DNA of 64,000 nt, taken from assembly GCA_913043025.1 (NCBI GenBank), contig CAJWLM010000001.1:186001-250000 (forward strand), read 5' to 3'. Numbering within the stretch: position 1 is the first letter of the stretch; every line of letters starts with the position of its first letter. Made by a program: the position numbers and the translations under genes. This stretch comes from an uncultured Rhodospirillaceae bacterium. GTDB lineage: Bacteria > Pseudomonadota > Alphaproteobacteria > UBA8366. The notes below the pieces were generated by a model. That model ran no database searches. It was not told where the DNA came from and worked only from the letters and a program-made list of their open reading frames with translations. Positions 8,355-21,150 of this stretch are shown here, piece by piece.

Positions 8355-9125
8355 TTACGTTAAAAAAGCGATATCGCGTGGCAGGTTCTGTAACTTTTGA
8401 CCTCCATCTAACACAATGATTTCGCCGGTCATCGAAGGGCAGTCAAGTATAAGCTTTAACGCAGCGGCAATTTGTCCGGGAGTGCAACCTTGTTTTAATG
8501 GGTTAGTTTTGTGCGCGATGTTAAATCGAAATTCTGACTGTTCCCCGGACAAAAGTGTGATGCCAGGTGCAATACCATTCACTCTTATTTGGGGCGCCAT
8601 GGCCATTGCTAATATTTCGGTTGCACCCTTGAGGGCAAATTTGCTGAGGGTGTACGACATGTAATCCGGATTTGGTGCCAATACCTTGTTATCAAGAATA
8701 TTTACTATGTTGCCTTTAACCTTTTTAGGAATTCTTTTTGAGAAGGCTTGCGATAAAAGAAGCGGTGCGCGTAGATTTACTGCGTGATGTAGATCAAGAA
8801 TTTCTGCGTTTAAACTATCAACGTCATCATACTCGAAAATAGATGCATTGTTGATGAGGCAACTAAGTGGCCCAACCTTATCTTGGCATCGCATAATTAA
8901 GTCCTCTGGTCCCTCTGCTGTAGCGAGATCGGCATGGAATAGGTTTGCCTTTCCACCTTTTGAGATGATGGTGTCTAACACCTTTTCTGCTTCAGCTTGC
9001 GATGCGTTGTAATGAATGCACACGTGCCACCCTTCGGCAGCCATTTCTTCTGCGAGAGCGGCACCGATACGCTGAGCAGCCCCGGTAATGAGCATATTGT
9101 TGGTCATGGGCAGTGTTTTTGTCAT
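8355..9125 (-). CDS. SDR oxidoreductase of the pteridine reductase / FolM type
   Basis: 256-residue short-chain dehydrogenase. The nucleotide motif is TG-x3-R-x-G (TGAAQRIG, 14-21) with Arg in place of the usual Gly, the signature of pteridine reductase PTR1 and FolM. NNAS is at 92-95. Asp145, Tyr158 and Lys162 reproduce the Asp-Tyr-Lys triad of PTR1 with the same 13-residue spacing. It therefore probably reduces a dihydropterin or dihydrofolate with NADPH. Start: ATG at 9125; a TTG at 9131 that overlaps the amidase stop is possible. It overlaps or abuts the amidase upstream and precedes the FolB-like gene, making a three-gene operon. Confidence 0.85.
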   Translation of the reverse strand: MTKTLPMTNNMLITGAAQRIGAALAEEMAAEGWHVCIHYNASQAEAEKVLDTIISKGGKANLFHADLATAEGPEDLIMRCQDKVGPLSCLINNASIFEYDDVDSLNAEILDLHHAVNLRAPLLLSQAFSKRIPKKVKGNIVNILDNKVLAPNPDYMSYTLSKFALKGATEILAMAMAPQIRVNGIAPGITLLSGEQSEFRFNIAHKTNPLKQGCTPGQIAAALKLILDCPSMTGEIIVLDGGQKLQNLPRDIAFLT

Positions 9126-9127
9126 AG

Positions 9128-10444
9128 TCAAATAACCGTATCCAGCCCAAGTTTCTTAGCACACCAAACCCCAGCGGAAAGCAAACGAGCTTCGTTATTG
9201 TGCGGGTCCACCAATTGGATCCCAATTGGCAACCCATTCGGGCCAGAAGTAACCGGCAAATAGAGACATGCTACGCCCAGAAAAGTCCATGCCCTATTAA
9301 AAATTGAACTACCTGTGGATCCTATGCCTTTTGGTGCTTCGCCAGGTGCGCCAGGAGTAAGTAAAATTTCACCGTCTTCAAATATTTCAGACAAATTGCC
9401 TCGTGCGTATTTGAGCAAACCCTCAGCTTCCCCTCGCTCCTCAGGAGTTGTCTCGAAACCGCGTAGCATTAAATTCTGGAATGGTTTGCTTAACAAATCC
9501 TGGTGGTTCATCCACTCTTCCTTAAACTCCCGGCAGGCCTCTACTGCCATGACTATTCTCTGAGCTGCTTGTAAGTTATCATAGGGTGGAATAAAAGTAT
9601 GATCACGAACCTGTGCACCAGCAGAGGAAAAAGTTTTGGCACAATCTTCAATTAGTGTCTGGATATAGTCCTCTGCAGCATCCCATTGGTCTGTTCGATG
9701 AAAAAGCAAATTCGGTGCATTTTCGGTTATCAACTTTTCTGGTTCCAGTCCGGAGAGAGCGCTGGAAAGTATTCCAACATCTGAAATGGTACGGACCATT
9801 AGGCCGACTGTGTCCATAATGGGAGCGAGTGGTTTGACTCCTACTTTATCGTAGGTATTGTAAGCAGGTTTGTAACCTACCGTGCCGCAATAGGCATTAG
9901 GGCGAATTACCGAGCCGCCAGTTTGTGTGCCTAATGCACCTTGCACCATAAAGTCAGCTACTGCAGCAGCAGATCCTTGAGAGGAACCACCGGGGGTGTG
10001 GGCTGTATTAATGGGGTTACGGGTTGGCCCGGGGTAGCTTGAGGCAAACTCTGTAGTTACGGTTTTACCCATAATTATCGCGCCGGCTTGACGCAGTCTG
10101 GCTACACATGCTGCATCGACAGATGGCATGTGGTTTTTGTATATGGGTGAGTTGTATTCGGTGGGCATATCCATGGTATCGATAATATCTTTTATTCCGA
10201 TCGGCACTCCATGCAGCGGTCCATTAGGCTGTGCCTTATCTCGATCCCGTGCTTGGGCCAGCGCAACTTCAGGGTCGAAAAATGCCCATGCTTTCACTGT
10301 ATTCTCTCGCGCCTCAATTTGATCTATGCAGGACTGCACTAGTTCTTCTGAGGAGAGACTTCCTGCTGCAATAGCTGAAGCTGCTTCGCTTAATGATAAC
10401 TTATTAGGAGATTTATCCACTGAAGTACCTTTTCTTTCATTCAT
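9128..10444 (-). CDS. Amidase signature family hydrolase
   Basis: 438-residue amidase-signature enzyme with Lys85 (GIKDIIDT), cis-Ser in GGSSQGSAA (about 154-155) and nucleophile Ser178 (QTGGSV). It is the paralogue most like the amidase at 1126-2412, sharing KTVTTEF and the SIFN-x-WT-x-LGV region. It is first in an operon with the pteridine-reductase-type SDR and the FolB-like gene, with stop and next start touching, so its substrate may be linked to pterin chemistry. That link is inference. Divergent to it, 58 bases away, is a flavoprotein oxidoreductase, so the two may share a control region. Confidence 0.93.
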   Translation of the reverse strand: MNERKGTSVDKSPNKLSLSEAASAIAAGSLSSEELVQSCIDQIEARENTVKAWAFFDPEVALAQARDRDKAQPNGPLHGVPIGIKDIIDTMDMPTEYNSPIYKNHMPSVDAACVARLRQAGAIIMGKTVTTEFASSYPGPTRNPINTAHTPGGSSQGSAAAVADFMVQGALGTQTGGSVIRPNAYCGTVGYKPAYNTYDKVGVKPLAPIMDTVGLMVRTISDVGILSSALSGLEPEKLITENAPNLLFHRTDQWDAAEDYIQTLIEDCAKTFSSAGAQVRDHTFIPPYDNLQAAQRIVMAVEACREFKEEWMNHQDLLSKPFQNLMLRGFETTPEERGEAEGLLKYARGNLSEIFEDGEILLTPGAPGEAPKGIGSTGSSIFNRAWTFLGVACLYLPVTSGPNGLPIGIQLVDPHNNEARLLSAGVWCAKKLGLDTVI

Positions 10445-10502
10445 ACTACATTGAGGTTAATTTGTAGCACGCGATTACAAACTGAAACAGGAGGTAACGA
10501 TC

Positions 10503-11801
10503 ATGGAACGCGACATCTTTTCCTCTGACGTTGCATTCACACCTTACTGGTGGTTGGCTGCTCCAAGGCCCGAGGCCAATATAAACGACCTACCCCTAAC
10601 AACCGATGTTGCTGTTGTCGGGGCTGGCTATGCCGGTTTATCAGCAGCGCTTACGATTGCCCGTGGTGGGCGAAGTGTTGTTGTGTTAGAGGCTGGTCGT
10701 CCAGGCGAGGGAGCAAGTTCTCGTAACGGGGGAGCAATTGGCGCCACGCTGAGACACTCTCTTACAAAATTGATCAAAATGCATGGCTTAGAAACAGCAC
10801 TGAAGTTTTATCGTGAAGCACGCGAAGGGCGGGACTGGCTGAAGAATTTTATTGTACAAGAGAAAATTGACTGTGACCTGCATCCGGCTGGAAGATTTAT
10901 TGGTTGCCACAGAAAAAATGATTACGAGACACTTGGCTATGATCTGGACCTGCAATCAAAACACCTCGGGGTTGAGGGTGAAATGGTTACTGCGGAGGAG
11001 CAACATAAATTTATCGGGTCAACTGCATATTTCGGAGGTCGCTTTTTAGCAGAGGATGGGAACCTTCATCCCGGCAGGCTGCATCAAGGCTTGTTGGATC
11101 TAGTTTGTGCAGAGGGTGTTCCCGTGGTTGCTCGTGCTCCAGTCGAAGAAATAACACGTGAGACGAAGGGCTTTAAACTTGTGTGCAGATCTTCCGCTCT
11201 GCGAGCTCGGCAAATAGTAATCGCCACAAACGGATATACTGGCCGTGAGTCACCTTGGTTGCGTCGTCGTGTGTTACCAATGCAGAGCCAAATAATTGCA
11301 ACAGAGCCTTTAGGCTCAAATATCATGGCTGATTTAGTGCCTGGCAATCGCCAATTAGGAGACACTTGTCGTTTGCATTACTACTATAGGGGATCACCTG
11401 ATCATGACCGTATTTTGTTCGGTGGCAGGGCTGGAGCAGCAGAAATCAGCGACCGGCGTAGAAGCGGGCGAATGCTTTACCGGCGGTTGCTAAGAATATT
11501 TCCATCTCTTGAAGGTACCAAAATTACCCATAGTTGGGGAGGCTTTATTGCCTACACGTTGGACCACATGCTTCATATGGCGCAAGATGAGGACATTTTT
11601 TATGTTGCTGGTTTTTGTGGGTCGGGTGTAGTGAACGCTAATTACTTGGGGCACAAAACCGGCCTCAAGGTTTTGGGGCAAAAAAATGGAAACACCATAT
11701 TTGATAGCGAGCATCCAACACATCCGATTTATTCAGGCAATCCGTGGTTTTTGGCGCCAATGGTAGCACTTAAAAACCTGCAGGATCGTTTCCGAATTTA
11801 G
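10503..11801 (+). CDS. FAD-dependent oxidoreductase, DAO family (amino acid/amine oxidase-like)
   Basis: 432-residue flavoprotein of the D-amino-acid oxidase/glycine oxidase group. The FAD motif GAGYAGLSAAL begins at residue 40 and is followed by the E-A-G-R-P-G-E-GASSRNGG block typical of PuuB-like gamma-glutamylputrescine oxidases. The C-terminus carries the second FAD contact (GFCGSGVVNANYLG). It probably oxidises a secondary or primary amine or amino acid to an imine with O2 or a membrane acceptor. A strong AGGAGG ribosome site precedes the ATG. Transcribed divergently from the amidase operon. Confidence 0.9.
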   Translation: MERDIFSSDVAFTPYWWLAAPRPEANINDLPLTTDVAVVGAGYAGLSAALTIARGGRSVVVLEAGRPGEGASSRNGGAIGATLRHSLTKLIKMHGLETALKFYREAREGRDWLKNFIVQEKIDCDLHPAGRFIGCHRKNDYETLGYDLDLQSKHLGVEGEMVTAEEQHKFIGSTAYFGGRFLAEDGNLHPGRLHQGLLDLVCAEGVPVVARAPVEEITRETKGFKLVCRSSALRARQIVIATNGYTGRESPWLRRRVLPMQSQIIATEPLGSNIMADLVPGNRQLGDTCRLHYYYRGSPDHDRILFGGRAGAAEISDRRRSGRMLYRRLLRIFPSLEGTKITHSWGGFIAYTLDHMLHMAQDEDIFYVAGFCGSGVVNANYLGHKTGLKVLGQKNGNTIFDSEHPTHPIYSGNPWFLAPMVALKNLQDRFRI

Positions 11802-11917
11802 GGACTAGTTAACAGCAACGCCAAGGAGGTTCATTCCCACTTGGAAAAGACAGATTCTAGGTGTTGAGTTTTCCTAAAGCCCCCAAAATAGGGTCCATAT
11901 ATTTCCAAGTATTATAA

Positions 11918-13471
11918 TCAGTTATTCCAATCCTTCAGAGCACTAGCCTCTCTGCCGGAAACGCGACCTCCGACAAAGCACTCGGTCAGATTACCACCTG
12001 CCAAATACAAGAAGCCCCAGATTCCTCCGCACTCGCCCGCTGCGTAAAGACGGGGTATTGGCTCGTTAAAAGCGTTGCAAATCTGATACTTCTCATTGTG
12101 TCGCGGACCTCCTTGAGTATTGGAAACAACTGGCCAAATTTCTCCAAGATAAAATGGAGGGCGCTCGATCTTGAGACGGGTTTTGGGTGGACGGCCAAAT
12201 TTATCCTCCAAGCCGCTATCGGTAGCTGAATTATACTCCTCGATAGTTTTTTTCAAATTTACAGGGTCACAGCCAATAAGATCAGCTAATTCTTCAATTG
12301 TGTTGGCCTTTTTTAGGATCCCGTTTTGTACCTCTTTGAGGTTATCTTCGCTCCACTCATACGGCTCTATTGTGCTGTCATTATATATTGTGGCGCCAAA
12401 ACGATATCGCTCGCGACCATCCTCATCTGCGATCATAAAGCAGGGCACGTACGGGAATTCCATTCTGCCAGTGTCATAAACATCAAGGGCCCGGTGACCC
12501 GTGTCCTGAGTATACGGCTGATATTCATTCATAAAACGATTGCCCCTTTTGTCGGCTAGAATCCATGCCATTGGAATTTCAGCTTCTTTCTTTGTTGGAA
12601 CCCAGTCGGGATGGCGTTTCATACGTATTCCAAAGGGATAATCTGGGTCAGGATGTCGGAAACCATAAGTGCCGTGGTAATGCCACATGTGCCATAGATC
12701 TGCCCCCACATCAGTTGCCATCTTTATTCCATCGCCGGTATTTCCTTGATGGGCGGCAGAGAGAACCGGATTCATCTGCCAATACTGGCGTTGCATATCC
12801 GGTGCCGCCTCTAGTCCGCCACAGGCAAGAATGACACCTTTGTTACATTTGATAGCTTTGCGGCCATCTGGCCCATCAATCCAAAGGCCTCTTACTTCAT
12901 TGGTGTTTTGAGTAATTAATCTTAGAGCTGGTGTGTTCAGACGAACTTCAATGCCACGCGAATTGACATTGTCATGAACAACTTTGAACAGTTTAGTTCC
13001 ATTACGATGGGATCGGGCATGTGGATACACTTTTAAGACGTCAACGCCTGGAATGTCTTCTACTTCAACAAACCTCATTTGATCAAACCCTGTAAACGGG
13101 TAGTTTGCTCCTCGTCCTTCGATAGTTATGGTGCTTGCATTATTTACTTTGCAGAGTTCTTCTAGGTAGTCATCCAGCAGCATCATTTCATCTACGAATG
13201 CTTCAATAATATTTCGTGACGTCGTGCCGTCATTCGTTTCGTATAAATGTTCAACGACTGGATCTCGTTCTAAAGCTAGCCTCACTCCACCACCAGCACA
13301 AATCGAAATGCCGCCCGGCATTGGCATTTTTTCAATCAGAAGTGTTTTTGCACCCCCATCACACGCGGCAATGGCGGCGGCGCCGCCCGCGTAGCCAAAG
13401 CCAACCACCACTACGTCGTATTCCTCATCAAAACTATCCACATGCTGTGGCGGAATGTAAGTTGATGTCAT
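11918..13471 (-). CDS. FAD-binding dehydrogenase, fumarate reductase/ketosteroid dehydrogenase-like
   Basis: 517-residue flavoprotein of the FAD_binding_2 family (fumarate reductase flavoprotein subunit, 3-ketosteroid dehydrogenase, TcuA). The dinucleotide motif GFGYAGGAAAIAA is near residue 24, followed by EKMPMPGG and an AGGG loop; the C-terminal YAAGECGGIWG and GGNLTECFVGGR segments bind FAD. It should introduce or remove a double bond in a carboxylic acid or cyclic ketone. No signal peptide is seen. It stands alone, convergent with the DAO-type gene. The specific substrate is unknown. Confidence 0.88.
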   Translation of the reverse strand: MTSTYIPPQHVDSFDEEYDVVVVGFGYAGGAAAIAACDGGAKTLLIEKMPMPGGISICAGGGVRLALERDPVVEHLYETNDGTTSRNIIEAFVDEMMLLDDYLEELCKVNNASTITIEGRGANYPFTGFDQMRFVEVEDIPGVDVLKVYPHARSHRNGTKLFKVVHDNVNSRGIEVRLNTPALRLITQNTNEVRGLWIDGPDGRKAIKCNKGVILACGGLEAAPDMQRQYWQMNPVLSAAHQGNTGDGIKMATDVGADLWHMWHYHGTYGFRHPDPDYPFGIRMKRHPDWVPTKKEAEIPMAWILADKRGNRFMNEYQPYTQDTGHRALDVYDTGRMEFPYVPCFMIADEDGRERYRFGATIYNDSTIEPYEWSEDNLKEVQNGILKKANTIEELADLIGCDPVNLKKTIEEYNSATDSGLEDKFGRPPKTRLKIERPPFYLGEIWPVVSNTQGGPRHNEKYQICNAFNEPIPRLYAAGECGGIWGFLYLAGGNLTECFVGGRVSGREASALKDWNN

Positions 13472-13541
13472 TGTCGGCCCTCCTAAAAGGTGAAAGTACG
13501 TGTTGTTGTGTCGTCGGGTTTATTTATCCATATTGTTTATT

Positions 13542-13558
13542 TGTCCAATAGTAGGACA
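13542..13558. promoter_or_regulatory. Possible operator: short perfect inverted repeat
   Basis: TGTCC and GGACA arms separated by 7 bases form a 17-base palindrome about 70 bases upstream of the flavoprotein start at 13471. Its size and place suit a dimeric repressor site over the promoter of that gene. No regulator gene lies adjacent, so this is only a positional suggestion. Confidence 0.3.
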
Positions 13559-13818
13559 GAGTGTCTGTACAGTGCATATCAATATTTTTCAATTATACGG
13601 TTTTGCGGTTCCTAAATTACTACCCCTCGATGAAAATACACGCCTTATTTAACCCCGAAACTATCATCTTAAATGGTTCAATCTAATGATATTCAGGTGT
13701 TTGCGACATCGCACAGGGTATTAAATATTTTCTAGTACACGAAAGCTAATTTCCCACAGATGCTTGCCTTGGCGGCATTCACATTACATACTGCTCTCAA
13801 GTAAGGAGGGCAATAATT

Positions 13819-14619
13819 ATGACAGAACCGCTATACGTTTATTGGCAGCCAGGATGAACTAGTTGCCTGAGACTTAAAGAGTTTCTTACGGCCCGTGGGG
13901 TTGTTTACGAATCGGTAAATGTTCATGGAAATCCAGAAGGGATGGCCATGCTCCAACGCATTGGAATTAAACGTATTCCTGCCATTTCTCGCGGAATGAA
14001 TTATGTTATGGGGCAAAAGTTAAAGGACGTTTGTGACTTTGTCGGAATTCCTCTTGGCGACATTAAAGAGTTTAGTGTAGATGAGCTGGCAGCCAAGATG
14101 GATATCATTCTTTTTGCAGCGATATCTTACATGAAAGAGATGCAGGATGAAGACCTCGAGCCTAAGCTCCCTAATCGGGACCGTAAAATTAGGCAACTTT
14201 GCTACCATGTTTACCGCATAGTTGAAGCATTCTGTGAGCTTATGGATGGAGAAGCGGAGGAATATCACACGACCATCGCAGACATACCTCATCCGAAAGA
14301 TATAATAAGCGGTACTGATCTTGCAAATTATGGTCTCGCCGTGCTGAAGCGTTTTCAAGGCTGGCATTCGTCTTATGCAGGAGACGGCACCGAGCCTGCT
14401 AATGCTTATTGGGGTGATGTTACATTGAGGGAACTTCTTGAACGGGTAACGTGGCACCCTGGACAACACGTACGGCAGATTAAGATGTATCTAGAGAACA
14501 GAGGTCACCCGCCCTCAAAGCCAATTGACGAGAGTGTATTCATAGGGTTGCCAATGCCGAAAAAAATTTGGGATGATGAACCGATGGATGAGAATAATGA
14601 AACCATGCAAGCAGTATAG
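13819..14619 (+). CDS. Glutaredoxin-DinB fusion with in-frame TGA at the active-site Cys (candidate selenoprotein)
   Basis: Read through one TGA (13855-13857), this is a 266-residue protein. Residues 1-80 form a glutaredoxin domain: strand YVYWQPG, then the redox motif U13-T-S-C16 where TGA replaces the first Cys, then LRLKEFL and the cis-Pro loop KRIPAI (Pro54). Residues from about 90 onward form a DinB-like helical bundle with the metal-binding His set H130, H213 and H217 (HPGQHVRQ). DinB proteins include thiol-dependent S-transferases, so a redox or thiol-transfer role is likely. A strong TAAGGAGG site lies 9 bases before ATG 13819, and the frame is uninterrupted on both sides of the TGA. 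Without recoding, only an internal ATG at 13942 would give the rest, lacking the redox motif. Selenocysteine fits best; a nonsense mutation is the alternative. Confidence 0.8.
13869..13885 (+). promoter_or_regulatory. Candidate bacterial SECIS-like hairpin after the in-frame TGA
   Basis: Seven-base arms GAGACTT and GAGTTTC pair with two G-U wobbles around an AAA loop. The hairpin starts 11 bases after the TGA and its loop begins about 18 bases after it, which is within the usual distance for bacterial SECIS elements. A short outer GCC/GGC pairing (13865-13867 with 13890-13892) may extend it. The loop lacks the G expected near its 5' side, so support is only moderate. Confidence 0.4.
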
Positions 14620-14764
14620 TAAGAAGCCTCAAAGTAATGACTTCGCGAAGATTTTGAGTTTTATTCCGATTTTGAATTTGATCCCAGAGTATCAAAATAA
14701 GTTTTTTATCTAAATCAGAAACTGAGGCAGTAAGTCTGTTTAGATCGTTCATAGGAGTTTTTTT

Positions 14765-16189
14765 ATGAGTAACGTTGTAACACCTTCTGAATTCCAGCAG
14801 TCTAAAACTGAAAAAACTCTAACAGTTTCTCAACAGGTAGCAGAGTTTGTTGAAGGTTTTTCTTTAAGAGACGTACCAAAAGAAATCATCAAGTTGGCAA
14901 AACTTCATGTTTTGGATAGTTTTGGAATTGCGCTTGCGTCATCCACAAAAGATTACGGTCATAAGGCAGCAAGCGCGGGGTTAGACCTTGGTGGAGAAGG
15001 AGACTTCCCTGTGGTTGGGCTTGCACATCGCTTGCCGCTTCGTGATGCAGTAATGGTAAACGGAGTATTAGTGCATGGGCTTGATTTTGATGACACTCAT
15101 ACAACCGGTGTCATTCATATTTCAGGAAGTACTGTGCCCACTGCATTTATTTCAGCGATGGCAAATGCAAAAACTGGCTACGAGGCATTAGAAGCTTATT
15201 TAATAGGTGTTGAGACCGGATCGCGTCTCGCAAAGGCGGCTGCTGGAGGTATCCACGCAAATGGTTTTCACACTACTGGAATAATAGGTGCGTATGGCTG
15301 TGCGATGGTTGCTGGCAAACTTTGCGATCTTACCGTTAATCAATTAACTCAAGCTCAGGGTCTTGTGGCGAGTTTCGGTGGCGCTACTCGTGCCTACCAT
15401 GCGAATGGTGCTTGGGCAAAGCGTATGCATACTGGGATTGCGGCCGTTAACGGTATAAATGCTGCAATGTGGGCTCGCCACGGTTTCACTGGGCCGGAAA
15501 CAATATATGAATATGAGCAAGGTCTTTACGGATGCTACGCTCATGGACAGGAGATTGACTTAGATGTTGTGACTAAGGGGTTTGGCAATGAATGGGAGAT
15601 ATCAAATGTTGCTTACAAACCTTATCCGGCATGCCATTGGTTACACGCTTTTATAGAAACTGGTATAAAGCTTCGGGAAGAGTACAAGTTAAAGCCTGAC
15701 CAAATTGAATCAATAATCGTATTAGCACACCCTAATCAAACCGCAGTTTGTATTCCTGAAGAGTCTAAGCGTCGACCACAAAGCCCTTATCAGGCACAAT
15801 TTAGTGTGCATTTTGCTACGGCCGCCGCGATCTGTCGGGGCCAATTTACGTTGGCCGAAATAGAGCCAGATGCTTACGGTGATCCCGACATACTAGGTCT
15901 TTGTGAGAAGATTCATTACGACACAACGACTGAGACCCTATATCCAGATTATTTCTCAGGTACAGTCGTCGTCCGAACAAAAGATGGGCGCGAGCTGAAA
16001 CATGCGCAGGAGTACAATCTTGGTACGGACCAACACCCTATAAGCGAAGAACAGGTGCTCGATAAATTCATGAATAATGCGACTATTGCGGTCTCAACCC
16101 GTCGCGCTGAGGAAATTCGTTCCATGATTTTAAGCATTGAAGATCAGGCTGATCTTGATGAATTTGATTCATTAATCAGTTTGTCATAA
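14765..16189 (+). CDS. MmgE/PrpD family protein (2-methylcitrate dehydratase-like)
   Basis: 474-residue MmgE/PrpD protein, the normal length for the family, which includes 2-methylcitrate dehydratase and cis-aconitate decarboxylase. Typical segments are VLDSFGIALAS, NG-x-LVHGLDFDDTH (the conserved D-D-T-H substrate loop), GVETGSRLAKAA, GFHTTGIIGAYG, and KPYPACHWLHAFIE. It should eliminate water from, or decarboxylate, a tricarboxylate-like substrate. ATAGGAG lies 8 bases before the ATG. It lies in a region with a TcuA-like flavoprotein, a 2-hydroxyacid dehydrogenase and acyl-CoA genes. True substrate unknown. Confidence 0.92.
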   Translation: MSNVVTPSEFQQSKTEKTLTVSQQVAEFVEGFSLRDVPKEIIKLAKLHVLDSFGIALASSTKDYGHKAASAGLDLGGEGDFPVVGLAHRLPLRDAVMVNGVLVHGLDFDDTHTTGVIHISGSTVPTAFISAMANAKTGYEALEAYLIGVETGSRLAKAAAGGIHANGFHTTGIIGAYGCAMVAGKLCDLTVNQLTQAQGLVASFGGATRAYHANGAWAKRMHTGIAAVNGINAAMWARHGFTGPETIYEYEQGLYGCYAHGQEIDLDVVTKGFGNEWEISNVAYKPYPACHWLHAFIETGIKLREEYKLKPDQIESIIVLAHPNQTAVCIPEESKRRPQSPYQAQFSVHFATAAAICRGQFTLAEIEPDAYGDPDILGLCEKIHYDTTTETLYPDYFSGTVVVRTKDGRELKHAQEYNLGTDQHPISEEQVLDKFMNNATIAVSTRRAEEIRSMILSIEDQADLDEFDSLISLS

Positions 16190-16200
16190 TAAAACTTCAG

Positions 16201-16638
16201 TTAGCGCCTGAAAACTCCAGGGCTTTCTTTTGTGTCTGGACTTAGAATCTTATAGGTGCATTGGCCGGTAGCGATCAGTTTTTGTGATTCTTTCTCCAGA
16301 ATATCTACTTTTGTAAATTGTAGTTTTTCGGTGTTTTGGGTGCGTTTTCCTATGGCAATGATCGTGTCAACTTCACTATTGTCAATAAAGCTAATATTTA
16401 GATTGATCGTTACCGAACGTCCGGGACCATTGGGAGACCAGTCACCACCAAGAAAGCCTGCAATATCAATGAGTGATGATATAATTCCATCGTGAATAAA
16501 ATTTTCGTTATCACGGTGCTCTGGCTTCACTTTAAGTTCCATCAAAACATGGCCATCACGCCACTCAACCACTTTGTAGTCTAGTACTTCGTGAAAAGTA
16601 CCCCTGATGTCTTCGCGCTCATATACAGATTCCAACAT
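16201..16638 (-). CDS. PaaI-like hotdog thioesterase family protein
   Basis: 145-residue single hotdog-fold protein. The helix signature reads FIHDGIISSLIDIAG: His49, then Asp50 in place of the first Gly of the usual HGG, while the catalytic-type Asp58 is kept. The family hydrolyses acyl-CoA thioesters. It follows a paralogue on the same strand by 17 bases. The two share the RTINLNI/SVTINLNI strand and the GGDW/AGNW block, so they are a duplicated pair that may form a heteromer. Confidence 0.82.
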   Translation of the reverse strand: MLESVYEREDIRGTFHEVLDYKVVEWRDGHVLMELKVKPEHRDNENFIHDGIISSLIDIAGFLGGDWSPNGPGRSVTINLNISFIDNSEVDTIIAIGKRTQNTEKLQFTKVDILEKESQKLIATGQCTYKILSPDTKESPGVFRR

Positions 16639-16655
16639 TCTTATGATGTCTTCCT

Positions 16656-17087
16656 TTATTGATTAGCATGAGGACGTGTTACCTCTGAGCGTAAAAGCTT
16701 GAATACACCTTGGCCACTGGCAATCACCATGCCAGTATCCGGAACAAAAATTTCTACATCAGAAAATAATGTGCCTTTTGTTGCATGGGCGCGGCGGCCA
16801 CGGACATGTACCAAATCGGCGCTTGTTCCTGAAATGAAATTTATATTGAGGTTGATTGTTCTTGTTTTGCGTTCTCCGCTGGAAGTCCAGTTTCCTGCCA
16901 TTTTGCCAGCGACGTTTACAAGAGATGCGATTACGCCGCCATGTATAGACCTACCCCTATTTCGGTGCTTTTTCTGTATGGGAATTGCCAATAGTGAGCA
17001 TCCATCAATCCACTCCAGCACTTCGTAGCCAAGAACTTGATTGTAATTTGCAACGATTTTATTTCGATTTTTATTTGTTTTAGTCAT
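16656..17087 (-). CDS. PaaI-like hotdog thioesterase family protein, paralogue
   Basis: 143-residue hotdog protein. It keeps the HGG (SIHGGVIASLVNVAG) but has Asn where PaaI thioesterases have the catalytic Asp, the reverse of the change in its downstream partner. Start taken at ATG 17087; the frame also allows GTG 17099. The next gene on the other side, a 2-hydroxyacid dehydrogenase, is divergent. The pattern suggests that one of the two paralogues supplies each half of an active site or that this one only binds acyl-CoA. Confidence 0.82.
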   Translation of the reverse strand: MTKTNKNRNKIVANYNQVLGYEVLEWIDGCSLLAIPIQKKHRNRGRSIHGGVIASLVNVAGKMAGNWTSSGERKTRTINLNINFISGTSADLVHVRGRRAHATKGTLFSDVEIFVPDTGMVIASGQGVFKLLRSEVTRPHANQ

Positions 17088-17190
17088 AGTACCAATCACA
17101 TCGCGTGAATTTGCGATTGCGTCAAGTCAATCTCTAGACATATTTAACTTTGCGCAGTAACAAATGTCATCGAAAGCAAGAGAGGGTTCC

Positions 17191-18255
17191 ATGCCTGATA
17201 ATTTAAAAGATAATGCACGTCACGTTTTTTGGTTCGATGATAATAAGACGCCCAACGTTTACGATGCTCTATCGAAGGTAGATTCCGTAACGGCACATAA
17301 GCTTTATTTTGACGCTCCCCAGGATGCAAATTGGGAGATTATGGAGACTTGCCATGCCTACTGCATCACAGCAGCTCGTGACGAGGTGGGTGATCAATAT
17401 AAAGGCCATGGGGAGCTACTCGATAGGTGTAAGAAACTATTAGTTTTGTCATCTTCTGGCGCTGGTTATGACCCTATTGATGTGGCAGCCTGCACTGAAC
17501 GTGGTGTTTTGGTTGTTAATCAAGCTGGTGCTAATGCGGAGGCTGTTGCGGAGCATGCCGTCGGAATGATGCTGTCGCTTACCAAAAATATTCCACAAAC
17601 CGACAAGTCGCTACGCAGCGAGCGAGGTGTGGATCGTGAGACTTTCAAAGGCTGGAATATGGAGGGCAAAACCGTCGGCATCGTGGGACTTGGTAATACT
17701 GGAAGTAGGGTGGCGCGCATATGTCAGAGGGGTCTTAGTATGCGTGTTCTTGCTTACGACCCTTATATTGCAGCAGCTAATTTTAAGGAATACGGGGCTA
17801 TTGAGGCGGATCTCGAGGAATTGCTAGCACAATCAGACTTTATCTCAATAAATTGCCCTTTCAATTCTGAAACAAAGGATTTGATAAATCGTGCGGAGTT
17901 TGCGCTAATGCAACCCTCTGCGTTTCTTGTAAATTGCGCTCGTGGTGGTATTGCCAATGAGGCCGCAATGATAGAAGCATTAGAGGACAAGCAAATTCGC
18001 GGTATAGGTCTTGATGTGTGGGATCAAGAGCCGCCTCCATTGGATCATCAGCTGCTGCAGTTTGATAACCTTATTGCCACTTATCACACAGCTGGTGTGA
18101 CTTTTGAGTCACGAGAAAATATGGCGTTTTGGAATGCTGACCAGGTCGTAAAGATACTTAGCGGCGAGAAACCAGAGCGCTTAATTAACCCTGATGCTTG
18201 GGATAAATTCTGTGATCGATACGAAGCATTATTTGGTGACCGGCCGCGTGATTAA
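17191..18255 (+). CDS. D-isomer-specific 2-hydroxyacid dehydrogenase
   Basis: 354-residue NAD-dependent dehydrogenase that interconverts a 2-oxoacid and a D-2-hydroxyacid. The Rossmann motif GIVGLGNTGSR, the catalytic Arg in NCARGGI, the Glu in WDQEPPP and the His in TYHTAGVT are all present. The start at ATG 17191 follows GAGAGGG; an upstream ATG at 17164 would add nine residues. It is followed after 89 bases by the TcuA-like flavoprotein on the same strand, so the two may work in one organic-acid pathway. It could equally be a phosphoglycerate dehydrogenase-like or glyoxylate reductase-like enzyme. Confidence 0.92.
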   Translation: MPDNLKDNARHVFWFDDNKTPNVYDALSKVDSVTAHKLYFDAPQDANWEIMETCHAYCITAARDEVGDQYKGHGELLDRCKKLLVLSSSGAGYDPIDVAACTERGVLVVNQAGANAEAVAEHAVGMMLSLTKNIPQTDKSLRSERGVDRETFKGWNMEGKTVGIVGLGNTGSRVARICQRGLSMRVLAYDPYIAAANFKEYGAIEADLEELLAQSDFISINCPFNSETKDLINRAEFALMQPSAFLVNCARGGIANEAAMIEALEDKQIRGIGLDVWDQEPPPLDHQLLQFDNLIATYHTAGVTFESRENMAFWNADQVVKILSGEKPERLINPDAWDKFCDRYEALFGDRPRD

Positions 18256-18344
18256 AAAGGTTATATTGATCAAGTTGATTATTTAGGTTTTTTTAAATAG
18301 GTATAGCCTATTATTTATTTTTTCAAAGCCAAGGGGTTTTTCAG

Positions 18345-19850
18345 ATGGCGAATATCATTGGATCTGATGTCGACGTTGTTGTGGTCGGGGCGGGGAATGC
18401 GGCGTGTGCGTCCGCAGCGTCGGCGGTGGAAAATGGTTCCAGTGTGGTGATGATTGAGACCGCGCCTGAGGACATGCGGGGCGGTAATTCTGCTTTCACT
18501 GGTGGTGCCTTTCGCTTTGCGCACAATGGCGTAGACGATTTAATGCATTTATGTCCTAGTCTCGCGGACGAAGATCTTGAAAACATAGATTTTGGCACGT
18601 ACACGCATGACCAGTACTATGACGATGTCTTCCGCATGACACAGTATCGAGCCGATGGCGACATGTGTGAAATCTTGGTTACAAATTCTTACGAGACCGC
18701 CAAGTGGATGACCACTTATGGCGTAGACCTAATTCCTGCCATGGGACGCCAGGCTTTTAAGGTAGATGGAAAATTTCGGTTTTGGGGAGGGTTGGCTTTA
18801 CGCATTAATGGTGGCGGCGAGCAATTAGTGAAAAATTGGCACGAACAAATGAGTAAGATCGGTGTCGATGTATTGTATGAGTGCACAGCAATAGGGCTTC
18901 TCCATGATGAGGGTAAGGGGGTTCACGGGGTGCGTGTTCGCTATCAGGGACAGGAACATGACATTGCAGCAAAGTCGGTTATTTTAGCATGTGGTAGCTT
19001 CGAGAGTAACGCAGAAATGAGGGCTCGTTATCTTGGTCCGGGTTGGGATCTAGCAAAGGTTCGAGGTACAGCCTTCAACAATGGTGCAGGGCTTCAAATG
19101 GCACTTGATCTGGGAGCTATGCCTTATGGTCATTTTTCAGGTGCCCACGCAGTGGCATGGGATCTTAATGCACCTCCTTACGGGGATATAACTATTGGGG
19201 ACCAATTTCAAAAACATAACGTGCCGTTTGCTGTAGTGCTCAATTCGAAGGGGGAACGTTTCCGTGACGAAGGAGAGGATTTTCACTCATATGTTTATGC
19301 ACGTTACGGTGGTGAAATACTCAAGCAACCCGGAATGTGTGCGTTCCAAATTTTTGATGCTAAAGTCCAGCATCTTCTCCGCTCAGAATATCGTTGTCGG
19401 TTCTTAACCAAATATTCCGCTGATACTATTGAGGAATTAGCAGGTAAAATAGAAGGAATGGACTCGGCTCGAATGATCAAAACGATCGAAGAATTTAACT
19501 CAGCGTGCCGTACGGATATTCCTTTTGATCCAAACGTGCATGATGGTAGATGTACCGAGGGGCTGTCTATCGATAAAAGCAACTGGGCTAATCCTATAGA
19601 TGAACCGCCTTTTGACGCATATGCTGTCACTGCGGGTGTTACCTTCACTTTTGGTGGTGTTAAGGTTTCCGGCCGAACAGAGGTCGAGAGGGCTGACGGT
19701 TCTGCAATTAAGGGTTTGTACGCAGCTGGTGAAATGGTCGGAGGATTATATTTTCATGGGTATGCATCTGGCACGGGATTAATGGCTGGGGCAACATTCG
19801 GACGCATTGCTGGTCGTGAGGCTGCTGTGCATGCAGGGACATCAAATTAG
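18345..19850 (+). CDS. FAD-dependent dehydrogenase, tricarballylate dehydrogenase (TcuA)-like
   Basis: 501-residue FAD_binding_2 flavoprotein. The FAD motif is GAGNAACASA at residue 15 (GxGxxA, as in TcuA), followed by MRGGNSAFTGGAFRFAHNG, a block I associate with TcuA. The C-terminus has GLYAAGEMVGGLYFHGYASGTGLMAGATFGRIAG. TcuA oxidises tricarballylate to cis-aconitate, usually with the electron carrier TcuB, which is not seen here. Together with MmgE/PrpD and the 2-hydroxyacid dehydrogenase, it suggests catabolism of a tricarboxylate or other unsaturated organic acid. It could be any related FAD dehydrogenase. Confidence 0.88.
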   Translation: MANIIGSDVDVVVVGAGNAACASAASAVENGSSVVMIETAPEDMRGGNSAFTGGAFRFAHNGVDDLMHLCPSLADEDLENIDFGTYTHDQYYDDVFRMTQYRADGDMCEILVTNSYETAKWMTTYGVDLIPAMGRQAFKVDGKFRFWGGLALRINGGGEQLVKNWHEQMSKIGVDVLYECTAIGLLHDEGKGVHGVRVRYQGQEHDIAAKSVILACGSFESNAEMRARYLGPGWDLAKVRGTAFNNGAGLQMALDLGAMPYGHFSGAHAVAWDLNAPPYGDITIGDQFQKHNVPFAVVLNSKGERFRDEGEDFHSYVYARYGGEILKQPGMCAFQIFDAKVQHLLRSEYRCRFLTKYSADTIEELAGKIEGMDSARMIKTIEEFNSACRTDIPFDPNVHDGRCTEGLSIDKSNWANPIDEPPFDAYAVTAGVTFTFGGVKVSGRTEVERADGSAIKGLYAAGEMVGGLYFHGYASGTGLMAGATFGRIAGREAAVHAGTSN

Positions 19851-19959
19851 TGTAAAGATGTAAGGTGGTTTGATTTGACGGCCCTGCCATTCCTATGCAG
19901 CTTATGGGAATGAAGGCGTAATTATTGTTTTCTCTTGTTCTGGGGGCTGATCGGGCCGA

Positions 19960-21150
19960 TTAAGTTTCTCCATACTGGACAACACTACCCGTTTTCAAAA
20001 AATCTTCGATTTCTTTTAAACTATAGCCATACTCAGAAAGTATTTGCTCAGAATGTTCCCCAAGATGTGGCGCATGAGCCAAAATTCCGTCTGCGAATGG
20101 TGAGTGCCCTGGTATGGTCGCCATAGGAATATTACCAAGAGATTCGTGATTGACCCAATTAATATAATCAGCAGCCTTCGTTTGGGGGTGGTAAAGAAAA
20201 TCATCAAACGTAGCAGTGGGACTATTAATTATATCGAGTTTATCAAGTTCTTTTGTCCAGTAGGCATTTGATTTGGTTATTGTTGCTTCGGAAATGATCG
20301 CAGTCAATTCATCGACATTTGCTATTCGTTTATCCCATTCATTGAAACGGGGGTCGTGCTCTAACTCAGGTTTCTCTATAAGTTGGCACAAAGCGTGAAA
20401 TTTATCCGGTTCTCTCGCACTTAAGTTTATTGAACCATCGTTGGTTGGGAAAGTGCCGGTTGGTGCGCCCAATACCGTTATTTTTCCCTCTTGCTTTACG
20501 TGTTCGATAATTTTTTGTCCCATAAAGGCGGCAGCAGCTTGCATCATGTTCATTTCAATTAACTTGCCACTGCCTTTAACGGCACGACGGTAAAGCGCTG
20601 TTGCGACGGCTTGATAAGCGTAAAGACCAGTGATTACATCCATGGCCGTCATCCCGACTTTATGCGGGATACCGTCATTTCCTTTATTGAGTGTCATCCA
20701 GCCCGTAAAACTTTGTGCCACTACATCTGTTACTGGTTTGTCCCTGTTAGGTCCCTTGGTCCCAAAGCCCGATATCGAACAATAGATAACTTTTGGGTTC
20801 GTTTTTTTTACCGTTTCGTAATCAAGTCCAAAACGGCCCATAACGCCGGGTCGAAAGCTCTCTATAACAATGTCCGATTGCGATACTAATCTTTTGCCAA
20901 TCGCTAGTCCGCCTTTGGTTTTAAAATTTATGCATAGTGCTCGTTTGCCGCGATTAAAATTTACATAACCGGCTGCCAAGTCGCCATACTTCTTACCGGC
21001 TTGACGCACCCAATCGCCACGAGGGGGTTCAACTTTAATAACGTTGGCCCCGTATTGTGCAAGCAGAAATGCGCAACTAGGCCCCGCAACACCTTGTGAT
21101 GCATCAAAGACATTTAACCCCTCCAGCGGCGGTTCTTCGCCTGTGTCCAT
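19960..21150 (-). CDS. CaiB/BaiF family CoA-transferase (class III)
   Basis: 396-residue class III CoA-transferase. It has the N-terminal GVAGPSCAFLLAQYGANVIKVEPP block, NFNRGKRAL, SDIVIESFRPGVMGRFGLD, and the Asp of PVTDVVAQSFTG (about D142), which forms the acyl-aspartyl intermediate. It moves CoA between an acyl-CoA and a free acid. It is the last gene of an operon: the FMN oxidase stop lies 5 bases before its start, and a crotonase precedes that. The operon could activate and degrade a hydroxy or branched acid. Confidence 0.94.
   Translation of the reverse strand: MDTGEEPPLEGLNVFDASQGVAGPSCAFLLAQYGANVIKVEPPRGDWVRQAGKKYGDLAAGYVNFNRGKRALCINFKTKGGLAIGKRLVSQSDIVIESFRPGVMGRFGLDYETVKKTNPKVIYCSISGFGTKGPNRDKPVTDVVAQSFTGWMTLNKGNDGIPHKVGMTAMDVITGLYAYQAVATALYRRAVKGSGKLIEMNMMQAAAAFMGQKIIEHVKQEGKITVLGAPTGTFPTNDGSINLSAREPDKFHALCQLIEKPELEHDPRFNEWDKRIANVDELTAIISEATITKSNAYWTKELDKLDIINSPTATFDDFLYHPQTKAADYINWVNHESLGNIPMATIPGHSPFADGILAHAPHLGEHSEQILSEYGYSLKEIEDFLKTGSVVQYGET

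Follow-up and report, generated by a model that had tools for sequence, protein, structure and literature searches.

The closest described relatives of the protein reported here are Cys-form proteins annotated as 'DinB family protein' or 'glutaredoxin domain-containing protein' (WP_207446294.1 of Roseomonas marmotae, WP_162571355.1 of Variovorax), which have the same two domains and the same motif spacing at 31-41% identity over nearly the full length. They differ from it in carrying Cys in place of selenocysteine (Sec), and their database annotation is by domain only; in Alpha- and Betaproteobacteria this Cys form is ordinary and already annotated. On the selenium side, the Sec glutaredoxin (PF00462, UxxC; PMC13188914, Table 1) and the GOS 'Grx-like' selenoproteins (PMC2398784) combine a glutaredoxin fold with UxxC, as our protein does, but they are listed as a glutaredoxin domain alone and no DinB fusion is described (PMC13188914; PMC2398784). 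Some of the short marine 'Grx-like' reads (PMC2398784) could be fragments of the glutaredoxin-DinB family. Members of the DinB/YfiT S-transferase-like superfamily (BstA, mycothiol S-transferase, EgtB) share with our protein the four-helix fold and a three-His motif, but those described in the papers searched are not fused to glutaredoxin.

The UXX-star selenoproteins (NF041212, NF041211, NF047338) and the HUGP/GUXX-star fusion (NF045501) are matched weakly, with E from 7e-6 to 7e-4, by the glutaredoxin half of our protein. The latter likewise fuses a Sec glutaredoxin domain to a partner, though to a different one. Our protein falls outside UXX-star, with 26.2 bits against the 66 bits of NF041212 and lower scores on the other models, all far under the curated cut-offs. 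No NCBIfam model passes its cut-off on this protein, and across the family the best NCBIfam matches are glutaredoxin-type models. GOS_C (NF045500) was also considered, as a review lists a Trx/Grx-like UxxC family, and was rejected: the model is Omp28-like with 377 positions and matched neither the source genome nor the family proteins, nor did it match any control genome.

A DinB member is absent from the 119-entry table of prokaryotic selenoproteins in a 2026 review (PMC13188914), and the open-licence papers searched held nothing relevant on a Sec-DinB or Sec-YfiT protein. The preliminary description of this DNA, made from the letters alone, had called the fusion with DinB an unusual selenoprotein architecture; it is absent from published selenoprotein lists. 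The Sec glutaredoxin-DinB fusion appears to be new as a Sec form; the architecture itself was already known as a Cys form.

Gene, reading frame and domains

The gene lies in a 64-kb stretch of DNA (hereafter the window) from a marine alphaproteobacterium. Its features are as follows.

13819..14619, + strand: predicted glutaredoxin-DinB selenoprotein gene, encoding 266 aa including Sec13 and ending with TAG at 14617-14619 (translation, homologues, dN/dS)
13805..13809, + strand: Shine-Dalgarno sequence GGAGG, 9 nt before the ATG (sequence)
13855..13857, + strand: in-frame TGA at the first position of the U-T-S-C redox site, predicted Sec13 (39 homologous genes carry TGA and others TGC/TGT at this codon)
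13864..13866, + strand: Cys16, second (resolving) residue of UxxC (invariant in the alignment)
13834..14062, + strand: glutaredoxin domain covering approximately residues 6-81, with P54 at the cis-Pro position (Pfam PF00462, structure model, PDB profile match)
14077..14571, + strand: DinB/S-transferase-like four-helix domain, about residues 87-251, with H130, H213 and H217 (Pfam, alignment, structure model, fold match)

The ATG at 13819 opens a single 266-codon frame, in which the TGA at codon 13 is the sole interruption; the active-site context reads MTEPLYVYWQPG-U-TSC, with the TGA at the first position of the glutaredoxin UxxC. Under the standard code the gene would be reduced to an N-truncated 225-aa ORF from 13942, comprising the DinB part and half of the glutaredoxin. 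Purine-rich sites resembling GGAGG precede the start in most homologues. The main features named in the preliminary description were all recovered, namely an ATG behind a strong upstream site and TGA-T-S-C followed by a continuous glutaredoxin and DinB-like frame with the three histidines, which remains open to the TAG. A scan of the 64-kb window for other in-frame-TGA redox motifs gave no further convincing candidate, and Rfam at gathering thresholds gave no matches in the window.

Assignment to the glutaredoxins is based on a Pfam profile above cut-off (PF00462, 31.0 bits against 22.9, E=3e-7), on C/UxxC together with the cis-Pro, and on the invariance of residues 13, 16 and 54. In the window protein DinB_2 scores slightly under its cut-off over residues 103-221 (E=1.7e-4), and 36 of 41 family members match this model; a profile or fold match together with three conserved histidines places the C-terminal part in the DinB/S-transferase-like superfamily. 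An alignment of 41 homologues, covering both Sec and Cys forms, keeps H130, H213 and H217 without exception, and its invariant positions also include W9, U/C13, S15, C16, P54, Y197, R209, Q216, R219 and Q220.

Sec and Cys forms and the selenocysteine machinery

The search for homologues in 98 relatives and 385 genomes of the class yielded full-length proteins at 32-98% identity. Among 51 homologous genes, 39 carry TGA precisely at the U codon of W-x-P-[G/H/A]-U-[T/S]-S-C and have no other internal TGA, whereas 12 have TGC or TGT at the aligned codon; one of these Cys forms, L072, was missed by the search motif and assigned by eye (WQTGCTSC). Beyond the 51 there are one more TGA copy (L121), two more Cys forms (L082, L083) and four plasmid Cys forms; plasmids of Burkholderiales carry Cys forms. 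An alignment for Cys or Sec at this position, the check proposed in the preliminary description, finds both in one column, and the in-frame UGA aligns with the conserved catalytic Cys of homologues, as is expected of a bacterial selenoprotein. Several genomes hold two copies, and in G345 these are one Sec and one Cys copy. A tree of 57 proteins requires three changes between the Sec and Cys labels, which may have run in either direction, as support at the deep forks of the tree is weak. In a phylum-wide sample of 398 genomes, searched at a strict E of 1e-20, matches occurred in two genomes only, so that in these samples the family is concentrated in Alphaproteobacteria.

A sequencing or assembly error that turned TGC or TGT into TGA might be suspected, given that the source assembly (G000; 3.08 Mb) is a draft of 65 contigs with 97.4% completeness and that the two relatives from a named collection are labelled MAGs. 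The same TGA is nevertheless present in two other genomes of the window's genus, whose copies are 98% and 91% identical, as well as in further genera and in the single-contig genome G108, and its recurrence in 39 homologous genes of many genomes rules out a single sequencing error; this explanation is in effect refuted and its probability negligible.

It could also be argued that the TGA is a real stop and that the gene is decayed or yields just the 225-aa fragment, since TGA is a normal stop elsewhere and a downstream ATG is present. The preliminary description had named Cys codons in close relatives beside a decayed frame here as evidence against its reading; the relatives instead have TGA and intact frames, with dN/dS of about 0.05-0.11. 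In the comparison of the window gene with its two genus mates, dN/dS is 0.07-0.09 after the TGA and 0.05-0.11 over the DinB part, and purifying selection acts on both sides of the TGA. Selection that persists past the TGA, the retention of the start and of the UxxC region, the maintenance of TGA at one codon in 39 genes with Cys as the alternative, and a covarying hairpin in the TGA forms only (see below) all weigh against a pseudogene, which we consider very improbable.

The machinery for Sec insertion, the search for which had likewise been proposed, is complete in the source genome, with selA, selB, selC and selD all present. The tRNA-Sec gene (selC) scores 71.2 bits, above the Rfam cut-off, and ARAGORN reads its anticodon as TCA; selB (442 bits) and selA (579 bits) adjoin on contig C4 and are clustered with selC. 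The selD domain (309 bits) lies inside a 754-aa oxidoreductase-SelD fusion; Ndh-SelD fusions with CxxC have been described as abundant in marine bacteria (PMC2398784). Because the fusion also scores on the 'oxidoreductase/SelD-related fusion' model, under that model's cut-off, we infer, and do not assert, that this copy is the active SelD of the genome. Immediately downstream of selC lies a 380-aa ORF (L080:9320-10462) with no Pfam or NCBIfam match at E 1e-5.

Moreover, of the 38 genomes that carry a TGA form, 37 have selA above cut-off, against 3 of the 13 with Cys forms only (genomes counted by hand; Fisher P=2.3e-7, relatedness of genomes not corrected). The lone exception, G053, carries the TGA form L035 with an intact hairpin and has neither selA nor selB; its assembly is 77% complete, and L035 may reflect this incompleteness or be a relic.

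Simple read-through of the UGA, or its decoding as a different residue such as Trp or Cys, might seem compatible with the Cys that occupies the position in the alternative form. Each gene, however, has a single in-frame TGA, the presence of the TGA form tracks selA, and a SECIS-type hairpin would be left without a role. In addition, 12 of the TGA-form genes terminate with TGA, so the codon keeps its ordinary meaning, in accordance with the earlier statement that TGA is a normal stop elsewhere. Decoding as a residue other than Sec is, in our judgement, hardly more than a slim chance.

Taken as Sec, as the preliminary description had proposed for the U-x-x-C centre, the codon is in agreement with the sel genes, the Sec/Cys pairing, the SECIS hairpin and the co-occurrence with selA. 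On these comparative data we consider it highly probable that the gene is a genuine selenoprotein gene encoding a Sec redox protein. It adds a well-supported family of selenoproteins, with a gene that is cut short when read by the standard code, and it represents the first Sec member found here in the DinB thiol-transferase superfamily. The natural Sec/Cys pairs, including one genome with both forms, allow the chemical benefit of selenium to be asked.

Hairpins downstream of the UGA

A candidate SECIS element was located in the coding sequence.

13888..13904, + strand: hairpin predicted to act as a bacterial SECIS, its stem formed by 13888-13894 and 13898-13904 and its GUG loop at 13895-13897, 37 nt after the TGA (covariation)

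In the TGA forms of the window's type the stem corresponds to alignment columns 34-40 paired with 44-50, where 96.6% of cells are paired and 12 cells show double changes. This value was reached in 0 of 500 shuffles, sliding the partner by 1-3 columns lowers the pairing to 15-65%, and RNAalifold recovers the same stem independently from these forms. The same columns in the Cys forms are paired in 40.5% of cells, which equals chance, and no consensus fold was found in the Cys forms. Twelve other TGA forms have instead a near-invariant hairpin, CGAAAG-AGUUU-CUUUCG, located about 22 nt downstream of the UGA. Third codon positions are frozen beneath both hairpin types and variable elsewhere.

The published model of the bacterial SECIS demands a 3-9 nt loop with G in the first two loop positions, a spacing of 16-37 nt and at most -7.5 kcal/mol (PMC13188914). 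Both hairpin types conform to its spacing and loop rules, that of the window at the upper spacing limit (37 nt), and the window hairpin alone folds at -7.8 kcal/mol. Single-sequence folding energy was uninformative: the 60-nt region lies within the range of its shuffles (z=-0.41), so the hairpin is supported by comparison.

One family with one UGA has two SECIS positions, about 37 and about 22 nt downstream, and the 22-nt type occurs at two places on the tree; turnover of SECIS elements is here testable. Paralogues within one genome (L026/L028 against L045/L044; genomes G007 and G003) are 93-98% identical over the 18 codons around the UGA and hairpin and 54-58% identical elsewhere, as though exchange or conversion between the copies had affected the UGA-SECIS cassette.

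Structure, proposed working and gene neighbourhood

AlphaFold2 on the family alignment gave a model with pLDDT 91 and pTM 0.88. Its C-terminal part matches the DinB/YfiT structures 2p1a, 1rxq, 3di5 and 6iz2 with probability 1.00 (Foldseek), and its N-terminal part matches the redoxin 3zit; by sequence, redoxins (among them 7c10 and 3zij) are nearest to the N-terminal half, followed by NrdH (PDB profile match). DinB (S-transferase-like) enzymes bind a metal mostly via three His and transfer bacillithiol or mycothiol, and a glutathione-using branch is named in the title of a work cited there (PMC5815605; PMC10950700).

Since DinB enzymes bind metal and transfer thiols, and in view of the model and the invariant residues, we infer that the protein may be an enzyme of thiol transfer or exchange that contains a selenol redox domain of its own. 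The decoding step is strongly supported: UGA codon 13 is read as Sec by SelB and Sec-tRNA(Sec), directed by the predicted coding-sequence hairpin 37 nt downstream. The N-terminal glutaredoxin domain (NrdH/YruB-like) would carry the selenol-thiol pair Sec13-x-x-Cys16. The DinB domain would bind a metal via H130, H213 and H217, and its centre might activate a low-molecular-weight thiol that would be transferred to an electrophilic metabolite or exchanged on it. The selenol would then attack the resulting mixed disulfide and Cys16 would resolve it, which would unite transfer and reduction in one protein. That the fused DinB domain does metal/thiol chemistry, with metal, thiol and substrate taken from family membership only, is a tentative proposal, to which we give somewhat less than even weight.

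Alternatively, Sec may be real and the DinB part a mere scaffold or dimerisation domain, the protein being a glutaredoxin-type reductase. The weak Pfam similarity to DinB, under cut-off in the window protein, and the fact that no substrate is known are in line with such a role, but a scaffold needs neither the three histidines nor the surrounding Q216, R219 and Q220, which are invariant in Sec and Cys forms alike; we regard it as possible, though rather unlikely. Returning to an active DinB domain, the joint reading of a Se-dependent bifunctional enzyme of GST-like character, whose metal-thiol DinB centre and selenol glutaredoxin centre would share one substrate, together with a UGA-SECIS cassette mobile within the family, is doubtful as a whole.

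The neighbours of the gene encode FAD oxidoreductases, MmgE/PrpD, an amidase and a CoA transferase, which suggests just a catabolic setting and names no substrate. The amidase was dropped as a guide to the substrate: six loci have it within 1.4 kb and seven at a greater distance, but five of these loci represent one syntenic block. A block common to five genomes of two genera has the following extent in the window.

8355-21150: block with SDR, amidase, DAO, flavocytochrome-like FAD protein, the glutaredoxin-DinB gene, MmgE/PrpD, hotdog thioesterase-like ORFs, D-2-hydroxyacid dehydrogenase, TcuA-like FAD protein and CoA transferase
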